A stretch of 64,000 nucleotides of DNA from Cryptosporangium minutisporangium (lineage in GTDB: Bacteria; Actinomycetota; Actinomycetes; Mycobacteriales; Cryptosporangiaceae). Below are positions 5,845 through 62,327 of this stretch, piece by piece (the stretch's first letter is position 1; each line of letters begins with the position of its first letter). The stretch lies in the NCBI RefSeq assembly GCF_039536245.1, contig NZ_BAAAYN010000017.1, forward strand, positions 123,801-187,800, given 5' to 3'. The notes below the pieces were generated by a model. That model ran no database searches, was not told where the DNA came from, and was given only the letters and a program-made list of their open reading frames with translations. The position numbers and the translations under genes are program-made.

Positions 5845-5882
5845 CGAGGGCGTTGAGTGGACCGGTCCACTCAACGCCCTCG
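5845..5882 (+). terminator. 38-bp perfect palindrome after xpb (terminator and possible MocR site)
   Basis: A 19-bp arm is repeated in perfect inverted form with no spacer. The centre is TGGACCGGTCCA (5858-5869). The hairpin sits 15 bp after the xpb stop and would end transcription from both sides, although no U-tract follows. The same 12-mer recurs at 6097-6108 in front of the mocR gene, so it may double as a regulator site. Confidence 0.65.
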
Positions 5883-14834: not shown

Positions 14835-14880
14835 ACGCGGAAGGGCGGGCCCGGGATATCCCGGGCCCGCCCTTCCGTGT
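14835..14880. terminator. Bidirectional terminator between subtilase and groEL
   Basis: Inverted repeat centred on GATATC (14855-14860), with arms of about 23 bp and a single G-U pair. It lies between two convergent genes and would stop both. A GCTAGCTAGCTAG tract follows. Confidence 0.8.
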
Positions 14881-38822: not shown

Positions 38823-39053
38823 GTGGGTCTCGTCTGGCACCGACCATTGACGTCCGAAGACGTCGCGACCGCCTATCGGTTGCTCGAGTTACACCAGCCG
38901 ATCAAGCCTTACCGAGGCGAGGCGGTCTGCGGCAACGCCGGCCACTGGACCTCGCCCCCGGCGTGGCCCTGCACGCGTGCGCGGTGGGCACACGAGGTGC
39001 TGGCCGCGGCCGAGCGCGGCGAGATACCGGACGATCTGCGAGCACCGGCATGA
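38823..39053 (+). CDS. Small conserved-type hypothetical protein
   Basis: 76 residues from GTG 38823 (GGGAG at 7 nt). Contains GEAVCGNAGHWTSPPAWPC and RWAHEVLAAAERGEIP, a pattern like the small actinobacterial proteins with C-x(n)-WPC-x3-RWA. The cysteines are not arranged as a clear zinc ribbon. Followed by an ATGA overlap with the next gene. Confidence 0.55.
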   Translation: MGLVWHRPLTSEDVATAYRLLELHQPIKPYRGEAVCGNAGHWTSPPAWPCTRARWAHEVLAAAERGEIPDDLRAPA

Positions 39054-39307
39054 ACCGACCGCCGGACGCCCCGGCCCAGGAGACTCCCGATTTGGGGCTG
39101 ACCGCAGGCGACATCGTCGCGCTCGTCGCCCAGCAGATCGAGATCCGTGGCGCCCGGCCCACGCTGACCAGCGAGTCGAAGGAAGCCGCCGAGCGCGCCG
39201 CTGGGCAGTTGCTGGACTCCCTCGGCGGCTGGGATGCCGCGCAGTCACCGGCCGTCGTCGCCCACGCCAACGGCGCGGAACACCCCCCGCCGCCTCCCCC
39301 GGGCTAA
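39050..39307 (+). CDS. Small hypothetical protein
   Basis: 85 residues. Helical core (LTAGDIVALVAQQIEIRG; ESKEAAERAAGQLLDSL) and a poly-proline C-terminus (PPPPPPG). Overlaps the upstream gene by 4 bp, so co-translated. No family recognised. Confidence 0.55.
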   Translation: MNRPPDAPAQETPDLGLTAGDIVALVAQQIEIRGARPTLTSESKEAAERAAGQLLDSLGGWDAAQSPAVVAHANGAEHPPPPPPG

Positions 39308-39324
39308 CCCTCCGAGCAGCTTCT

Positions 39325-39381
39325 TCAACCTATCGGTTGACAACACCACGGACGCTCCTTCTTGTTCAACCAGCTGGTTGA
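39325..39381. promoter_or_regulatory. Two ArsR operator sites
   Basis: TCAACC-TATC-GGTTGA (39325-39340) and TCAACC-AGCT-GGTTGA (39366-39381) share both half sites and a 4-bp spacer, and are 41 bp apart, about four helical turns. They lie just upstream of and inside the arsR start region and are typical of ArsR proteins paired with AHSA1 genes. Confidence 0.75.
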
Positions 39382-39401
39382 ACAAGAAGGAGCGTCCGTG
39401 G
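39346..39401. repeat. 56-bp perfect palindrome over the arsR start
   Basis: Two 28-bp arms, exact reverse complements with no spacer, centred between 39373 and 39374. The inner 16 bp is the second ArsR operator. The right arm carries the arsR Shine-Dalgarno (AGGAG, 39388-39392) and GTG start (39398). The left arm carries the mirror copy, which points an identical Shine-Dalgarno and GTG (39349) to the minus strand, opening a 34-codon frame down to 39245. Confidence 0.97.
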
Positions 39402-39775
39402 CGGCCGATCCGCTCTCCCGCGTCTTCTCGGCGCTCGCCGACCCGACCCGACGCGACATCGTGGCCCGGCTCGCCGTCGGCGACGCGACCGTCAACGAAC
39501 TCGCGGCGCCGTACGAGGTGAGCGTTCAGGCGGTCTCCAAGCACCTCAAGGTGCTGGAGGACGCCGGACTGGTGAGCCGGAGCCGGGAGGCACAACGCCG
39601 CCCGGTGCACCTGGAAGCGGAGGTGTTCGACCTGATGACTGCGTGGATCGAGCGATATCGGCGACAGGCTGAGGCCCGGTACCGCCGCCTGGACGAGGTC
39701 CTGCGGGACCTGCCCGACGAACCGCCCCGACCCGATCACCCCCAAGGAGGCAGCCATGCCCACCCACACCCGTGA
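39398..39775 (+). CDS. ArsR family transcriptional regulator
   Basis: 125 residues: MAADPLSRVFSALADPTRRD, VNELAAPYEVSVQAVSKHLK, VLEDAGLVSRSREAQRRP. No metal-binding cysteines, as is usual for the ArsR-AHSA1 subclass, whose partner protein binds a hydrophobic ligand. The GTG start lies inside the 56-bp palindrome; its C-terminal 20 bp overlap the AHSA1 start. Autorepression through the two TCAACC-N4-GGTTGA sites is expected. Confidence 0.93.
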   Translation: MAADPLSRVFSALADPTRRDIVARLAVGDATVNELAAPYEVSVQAVSKHLKVLEDAGLVSRSREAQRRPVHLEAEVFDLMTAWIERYRRQAEARYRRLDEVLRDLPDEPPRPDHPQGGSHAHPHP

Positions 39776-40235
39776 GACGGAGATCGTCGCCGACCCGACC
39801 GTCCCGCTGATCCGGATGACCCGGGAGTTCGACGCTCCGCCGGAGAAGGTCTTCCGCGCCCACGTCGATCCCGATCTGCTCGTGCAGTGGCTCGGCCCGG
39901 CGAAGAACGAGATGGTGATCGATCACTTCGACTGCCGAACCGGCGGCTCGTACCGCTACCTGCACGTGGACGGCGATGCCCAGTACGGGTTCCACGGGAG
40001 CTTCCACGAGGTGCGCCCGTTCGAGCTGATCATCCAGACGTTCACGTTCGAAGGGGCGGGCGACGGCGTCTCGCTGGAGAAGGTCGTGTTCGAAGACCTC
40101 GGCGACGGCCGGACCCGCCTGGTGTCCACGGCGATGGTCGACAGCTTCGAGGAGCGGGACGCCTGGCTGGTCAACGGCATGCAGGAAGGCGTCCGCGAGG
40201 GTTACCAGCGGCTGGACACCCTGCTGGCGAGCTGA
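39756..40235 (+). CDS. SRPBCC/AHSA1 family protein
   Basis: 159 residues of the START-like helix-grip fold: LIRMTREFDAPPEKVFRAHV, LLVQWLGPAKNEMVIDHFD, GGSYRYLH, FHEVRPFELIIQTFTFEG. Binds a hydrophobic ligand; with the upstream ArsR gene it forms the common ArsR-AHSA1 pair. GGAGG precedes the ATG. Physiological ligand unknown. Confidence 0.92.
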   Translation: MPTHTRETEIVADPTVPLIRMTREFDAPPEKVFRAHVDPDLLVQWLGPAKNEMVIDHFDCRTGGSYRYLHVDGDAQYGFHGSFHEVRPFELIIQTFTFEGAGDGVSLEKVVFEDLGDGRTRLVSTAMVDSFEERDAWLVNGMQEGVREGYQRLDTLLAS

Positions 40236-51287: not shown

Positions 51288-51332
51288 ACGTCGAATCCGC
51301 TTCCACGAGCTCCGTGGAAGCGGATTCGACGT
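51288..51332. terminator. Bidirectional terminator vanZ / rlmB
   Basis: Perfect 20-bp stem (51288-51307 with 51313-51332) and AGCTC loop between convergent genes; it ends 4 bp before the rlmB stop. Confidence 0.9.
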
Positions 51333-62294: not shown

Positions 62295-62327
62295 AATCGG
62301 GGTCCACGACGCCCGTGGACCCCGATT
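62295..62327. terminator. Terminator hairpin
   Basis: 14-bp perfect stem AATCGGGGTCCACG / CGTGGACCCCGATT with an ACGCC loop, followed by TT on the plus strand, between two minus-strand genes; ends the 62386 gene. Confidence 0.8.

Follow-up and report, generated by a model that had tools for sequence, protein, structure and literature searches.

A perfect 56-bp palindrome over an operator and the start codon of arsR in Cryptosporangium minutisporangium, probably produced by template switching

In Mycobacterium tuberculosis the Rv2034-Rv2035(-Rv2036) locus encodes an autorepressing ArsR-like protein and an overlapping SRPBCC-type (polyketide_cyc2) gene, and the Rv2034 operator is a palindrome with a 4-nt spacer lying beside the start codon, according to the available part of the report (PMC3338718). 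Quasipalindrome-associated template-switch mutation, the mutational mechanism closest to the present case, has been described for Escherichia coli (available part of PMC7202029). Literature searches on template switching in bacterial genomes, on read-through sequestration of the Shine-Dalgarno sequence and on ArsR in Cryptosporangium genomes, as well as one combining ArsR, SRPBCC, operator and palindrome, found no paper. A ribosome-binding site that is hidden solely in the longer, read-through transcripts is known from gene e of phage T4. The locus described here, from Cryptosporangium minutisporangium, shares elements with each of these systems. It lies in a stretch of 64,000 nucleotides, the whole of which is called the window below, and it comprises the following features.

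39050-39307, plus strand: small co-directional ORF that can be aligned with the same-genus relative and stops 17 nt short of operator 1
39325-39340, no strand assigned: operator 1, TCAACCTATCGGTTGA, overlapping the -35 and conserved in relatives
39337-39342, plus strand: -35 hexamer TTGACA, recognised by its sequence and its spacing in relatives; the right half of operator 1 runs into it
39346-39401, no strand assigned: perfect 56-bp palindrome, dyad axis between 39373 and 39374
39346-39365, plus strand: left outer arm, most likely a derived reverse-complement copy of 39382-39401, in the place of the -10-bearing linker of relatives
39360-39366, plus strand: -10 position, occupied by TCTTGT (17 nt past TTGACA) and CTTGTT (18 nt past it), neither having A at position 2
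39366-39381, no strand assigned: operator 2, TCAACCAGCTGGTTGA, the palindrome core
39373-39374, plus strand: predicted transcription start, projected from the in-frame operator 2 ATG of six relatives with 56-57-nt spans
39387-39392, plus strand: Shine-Dalgarno sequence AAGGAG of arsR, by sequence
39398-39775, plus strand: arsR, GTG start, 125 aa, ArsR/SmtB-type winged helix, 0 cysteines
39756-40235, plus strand: AHSA1/SRPBCC gene, 159 aa, overlapping the end of arsR and having its own AAGGAGG; PF08327 68.4 bits (cut-off 22.1)

A preliminary description of this DNA had claimed a spacer-free palindrome with 28-bp arms, and the inverted-repeat search of the window returned exactly this: a perfect 56-bp palindrome at 39346-39401, whose arms (39346-39373 and 39374-39401, 28 nt each) match at 100% with 0 nt between them. 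Its core was correctly recognised there as one of two TCAACC-N4-GGTTGA operators, and the Shine-Dalgarno sequence (39387-39392) and the GTG of arsR (39398-39400) do lie in the outer part of the right arm. The two operators are 41 nt apart, start to start, and flank the promoter. Taking the 16-bp operator as given, the 20 further matched pairs have a probability of about 4^-20 by chance. In a sample of the same genome comprising the window and 40 other stretches (863,854 bp of 9.23 Mb), this is the longest perfect loopless palindrome, and only four with arms of at least 14 nt were found (arms of 28, 23, 20 and 19). When loops of up to 12 nt were allowed, the list of repeats with arms of at least 14 nt had 51 rows; three of these were N runs, and the other 48 are real inverted repeats. 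Gene context was assigned to 21 of the 48, the arsR palindrome among them, using a rough gene filter that overlooked arsR itself; by this filter the remaining assigned repeats are mostly intergenic, often just past a gene end, and one lies over the start of a mechanical ORF.

Three of the four loopless palindromes in the sample (5845-5882, 14838-14877 and 39346-39401) and 10 of the 48 inverted repeats fall within the 64-kb window. The window also carries two copies (51288-51332 and 62295-62327) of a dispersed hairpin family, AATCCGYCTCCACG-N5-CGTGGAGRCGGATT, which has 41 sites in the whole genome at up to 2 mismatches. Variants of this hairpin change both arms in step, and most of the five copies examined are intergenic or close to gene ends.

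The product of arsR scores above the cut-offs of three ArsR/SmtB-family profiles (NF033788, 79.4 bits against 55; PF01022, 44.3 against 22; PF12840, 47.3 against 27) and below that of the SdpR autorepressor subfamily (NF033789, 61.6 bits against 100). The cysteine metal-binding motif of metalloregulators is absent from its 125 residues, which include no cysteine at all, and metal sensing via thiolates is therefore not claimed. The gene is under purifying selection relative to the same-genus copy (dN 0.029, dS 0.371, dN/dS about 0.08 over 103 codons). Together, arsR and the AHSA1 gene probably form an autorepressed operon. The ORFs upstream of arsR run in the same direction, the last one stopping 17 nt short of operator 1, and no terminator-like site (hairpin plus T run) was found in 39000-39500; hence read-through into arsR from the upstream ORFs is possible, with the ORF at 39050-39307 as a possible source. 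The same negative result led us to reject the palindrome as an intrinsic terminator.

ArsR-like proteins of any kind were found in 60 of 61 genomes searched, and the exact two-operator pattern in 56 of 397 genomes of the order and 27 of 246 genomes of a class sample, the genome under study being counted in all three figures. At least 80 named loci were taken from Blastococcus, Geodermatophilus, Gordonia, Nocardioides and others, leaving out the genome itself and its very near relatives. An operator-2-like site (up to 3 mismatches) is present in 78 of the 80 named loci listed, where the dyad run never exceeds 5, and is missing from L100 and L161; in a few loci that have no recognised operator 1 (e.g. 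L121, L139 and L151) the site scored may be operator 1. By eye, L100, from an Acidimicrobiia MAG in which there is no operator 2 within 3 mismatches, has another long looped inverted repeat directly 5' of arsR.

For quantitative comparison we used 138 distinct promoters including that of the window, oriented by the downstream helix-turn-helix and with identical cores removed. To be included, a promoter had to show both operators at the stated degeneracy, to span 54-68 nt from the start of operator 1 to the end of operator 2, and to come with a recognised helix-turn-helix motif. This selection dropped three short-span sites, L077 and L210 (57 nt) and L080 (58 nt), which were examined separately and have dyad runs of 0, 1 and 2, respectively. 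The span is 61-63 nt in 122 of the 138 promoters and 57 nt in the window. The exact dyad run past operator 2 is 0 per side in 92 promoters and at most 7 in all but two, namely L007 with 9 and the window with 20; over 20 flank positions the window has 20 matches and the others at most 12. The palindrome is thus unique among the 138 promoters. The 137 others have alike operator pairs ahead of an ArsR-type helix-turn-helix, a count made on promoter and ArsR alone, of which the AHSA1 gene was not part. The N4 of operator 2 in the window is AGCT and itself palindromic, a property found in 15 of the 138. A long palindrome as the operator of the whole family was rejected, the extension in the other 137 promoters being 9 nt or less. 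In L007 and L074 operator 2 is extended differently and less far, by 9 and 7 nt on each side, into the Shine-Dalgarno region 5' of arsR, possibly an independent, milder case.

The preliminary description had proposed a comparison of the intergenic region in relatives, and the palindrome is absent both from the same-genus ortholog (G002) and from the other 137 promoters, so that among the promoters compared it is restricted to its own genome. The ortholog, the single copy on which the genus-level comparison rests, is syntenic, encodes an ArsR 95% identical over 103 aa, and has a 62-nt operator span with TAACTT 17 nt past TTGACA. It also indicates the likely direction of copying. The right arm of the window matches the right flank of the ortholog with a score of 12 and the reverse complement of the left flank with 6, and the left arm matches the reverse complement of the right flank with 12 and the left flank with 6, which argues that the left arm is most likely the derived copy, some 20 nt replacing some 25, and that the right arm with the Shine-Dalgarno sequence and GTG is mostly ancestral. 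Among the 137 relatives the right arm fits their own right flank better in 91 and the left flank better in 26, with 20 ties. The inner 8 nt of the arm are ambiguous (left flank of the ortholog 6, right flank 5). This ambiguity, together with the 26 relatives that fit on the left, means that more than one copying step, or copying in both directions, is possible.

The allele has the form that template switching leaves: one arm is an exact reverse-complement copy that is absent from relatives keeping the other arm, with the inner 8 nt ambiguous. Furthermore, the relatives have a weak quasi-dyad at this place. Their mean run is 0.91, a value that none of 500 re-paired controls (mean 0.56) reached, and their matches in the first ten flank positions average 3.84 compared with 3.54 (1 of 500), both by a statistic that ignores relatedness. 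Operator 2 and the weak flanking dyad would together provide the pre-existing imperfect repeat that a template switch needs. We therefore infer, as the probable origin of the palindrome, a single template-switch (quasipalindrome) mutation at operator 2 in a conserved and probably autorepressed arsR-AHSA1 promoter, the outer arms having no conserved role. In such an event the operator 2 hairpin would let the nascent strand fold back and copy about 20 nt of its own arm. The arm copied would be the adjacent ribosome-binding sequence with the Shine-Dalgarno and GTG, laid backwards onto the promoter linker, and synthesis would then rejoin the template, leaving the region about 5 nt shorter overall than in the same-genus relative. 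The outer arms would probably be a neutral or mildly harmful by-product, and ArsR dimers would most likely bind just the two operators of 16-18 bp. Two points speak against the by-product reading: perfect arms could equally mean selection, and, if the cell still uses arsR, losing the -10 beside this conserved gene is hard to explain.

The absence of the usual -10 is seen directly in the promoter comparison. The best-fitting -10 hexamer lies 17-18 nt past TTGACA in 136 of the other 137 promoters; its second base is A in about 93% and its sixth is T in about 99%, as scored with a matrix seeded with TANNNT and thus biased towards such hexamers. NANNNT at spacers of 16-19 nt occurs in 130 of the 138 promoters and is absent from the window, whose best hexamer, CTTGTT at a spacer of 18, has the fourth lowest score of all. 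The three promoters below it include the short-span L111 and L123, and just above it are L130 and L226. All four of these have a conserved arsR, and a low -10 score is hence not proof of a dead promoter. The left arm has thus taken the place of the usual -10 and may have weakened the promoter. The replacement of the -10 is a cost that was missing from the earlier account of the palindrome.

The short-span promoters also suggest where transcription starts. Besides the window, six of the promoters examined have spans of 56-57 nt (L111, L123, L130 and L226 within the 138, and L077 and L210 among those dropped by the motif filter), and in all six an ATG in frame with the ArsR-like protein begins at the ninth base of operator 2. 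L111, L123, L130 and L226 have no later start in the first 50 nt, and L111 and L123 have possible upstream starts too. The 58-nt spans differ, with L209, L211 and L080 starting past operator 2 and L157 having candidates at both places. The six are apparently leaderless, with an RNA that would start at an ATG inside the repressor's own operator. Counted either from TTGACA or from operator 2, this ATG projects to 39373-39374 in the window, i.e. the dyad axis. The promoter is conserved, with TTGACA in operator 1, and a start at or within operator 2 is therefore to be expected.

A start at the axis would alter the consequences for translation. Computed folding energies are -9.7 kcal/mol for 39372-39420, -65.3 for 39310-39420 and -51.9 for the 56-nt palindrome. 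In six RNAs starting upstream (from 39310 or 39340) the unpaired probability is 0.00 for the Shine-Dalgarno sequence and at most 0.02 for the GTG, so that the earlier proposal that an upstream-started RNA folds the ribosome site into the hairpin is upheld by the model. RNAs starting at 39372-39374 give 0.18-0.87 for the Shine-Dalgarno sequence and 0.03-0.58 for the GTG, varying with length and start. The RNA of the promoter itself is thus predicted to escape the 28-bp hairpin, carrying the right arm alone and keeping ordinary local pairing, and the lock on the ribosome site would be limited to read-through RNA from upstream. The general, strong self-repression of ArsR translation that had been suggested does not follow, given that the predicted start yields an RNA without the 28-bp hairpin. 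Likewise, the preliminary description had named a start at or after 39390 as refuting its proposal; this is stricter than needed, since a start at the axis already avoids the hairpin.

The mirror copy had also been said to open a 34-codon frame on the minus strand. The mirrored GTG is indeed present at 39349. On that strand, though, arsR is already crossed by a mechanical frame of 174 aa (39769-39245), of which the proposed frame is the tail; the copy hence added a start codon and opened no frame. Within the window 63 of the 105 nt of the minus-strand frame are antisense to the ORF at 39050-39307. In the 140 nt read from the same-genus relative, the homologous frame has one stop and is open beyond it, which we attribute to its lying antisense to that ORF, and no GTG is found at the matching place in these 140 nt. 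A consensus scan found no minus-strand promoter, though the same scan also misses the plus-strand promoter. We rejected a divergent minus-strand gene on these grounds (tail of a longer frame, no promoter-like site in a weak scan, no GTG in the relative); the sequence lends it no support, nor does it amount to proof against it.

The main rival to template switching alone is a palindrome selected as a gate against read-through, closing the ribosome site in upstream RNA so that ArsR is made from its own axis-start promoter alone, as the extreme of a weaker hairpin present across the family. The co-directional upstream ORFs ending 17 nt before operator 1 and the lack of terminator-like sites in 39000-39500 would suit such a gate. 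In the read-through RNAs of 49 relatives, pairing between the linker and the Shine-Dalgarno sequence averages 0.61 compared with 0.41 for shuffled linkers, and it is above the null in 35 of the 49, with a folding z below -2 in 12; the remaining 14 show no excess, the statistic ignores relatedness, and other causes may account for the pyrimidine-rich linker. A weak family-wide effect thus has room. The long extension, however, occurs in just 1 of 138 promoters, the copying also deleted the usual -10, which selection for a gate should retain, and the Shine-Dalgarno sequence is merely partly open in the own-start RNA as well. We regard selection for the gate as unlikely, while taking it seriously. 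A broader form, in which ArsR-AHSA1 promoters have a start-site-dependent translation gate (operator-started RNA translated, the operator-centred hairpin of read-through RNA covering the Shine-Dalgarno sequence) that template switching perfected here, is in our judgement quite unlikely. If it were true, one dyad axis would be the operator centre, the transcription start and the boundary between silent and active RNA.

It is highly unlikely that arsR is translationally silenced, its own promoter dead for want of a -10, the locked read-through RNA its sole transcript and AHSA1 expressed without the repressor. The fourth lowest -10 score of 138, the -51.9 kcal/mol of the 56-nt hairpin and the AHSA1 gene's own AAGGAGG would agree with silencing, but arsR is intact, shares 95% identity over 103 aa with its ortholog and has a dN/dS of about 0.08, and L111 and L123 score lower still, and L130 and L226 nearly as low, all with conserved ArsR. 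That ArsR or another dimer touches the outer arms, as the symmetry itself might suggest, is scarcely plausible given that extensions in the 137 other promoters, whose operators are similar, stop at 9 nt or less. An assembly or library artefact is barely credible: the assembly is a draft in 152 contigs and contains at least one run of N, but the palindrome is interior to a 650-kb contig, and beyond it the sequence picks up correctly again at operator 1.

Collectively, the template-switch reading makes this locus look like ordinary parts with an unusual mutation: a promoter of the usual self-regulated type that suffered a single copying accident, and not a new type of switch. The promoter may have lost strength, and read-through RNA may be conditionally locked. 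As an allele found in nature, it would show a promoter rewritten by a template switch for which an operator palindrome was probably the seed, about 20 nt of ribosome-binding sequence having been placed onto the linker at the expense of the usual -10. The locus lends itself to a clean test of how operators serve as hot spots for mutation, and it could equally show whether a perfect start-codon palindrome matters when transcription begins at its centre.

Compared with phage T4 gene e, the predicted arrangement is alike in that an upstream start gives a hairpin over the Shine-Dalgarno sequence and start codon and an internal start frees both. It differs in that the hairpin here is encoded by a perfect palindrome in the DNA, at whose centre lies a repressor operator, with the predicted start at the axis. 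As in the E. coli quasipalindrome mutations (available part of PMC7202029), an imperfect inverted repeat would have been made perfect by copying one arm onto the other; unlike that case, a natural allele is inferred here against relatives, with about 20 nt per side gained at once or stepwise. The closest likeness is to Rv2034-Rv2035, as far as the available part of PMC3338718 describes it: arsR overlaps a downstream SRPBCC-type gene (arsR ends at 39775 and the PF08327 gene spans 39756-40235), and an N4-spaced palindromic operator lies in its own promoter, here as two sites with putative autorepression. The Rv2034 operator is CCGTAAGT-N4-ACTTACGG, whereas here it is TCAACC-N4-GGTTGA, and unlike the Rv2034 layout two operators flank the promoter, the second extended into the 56-bp palindrome.
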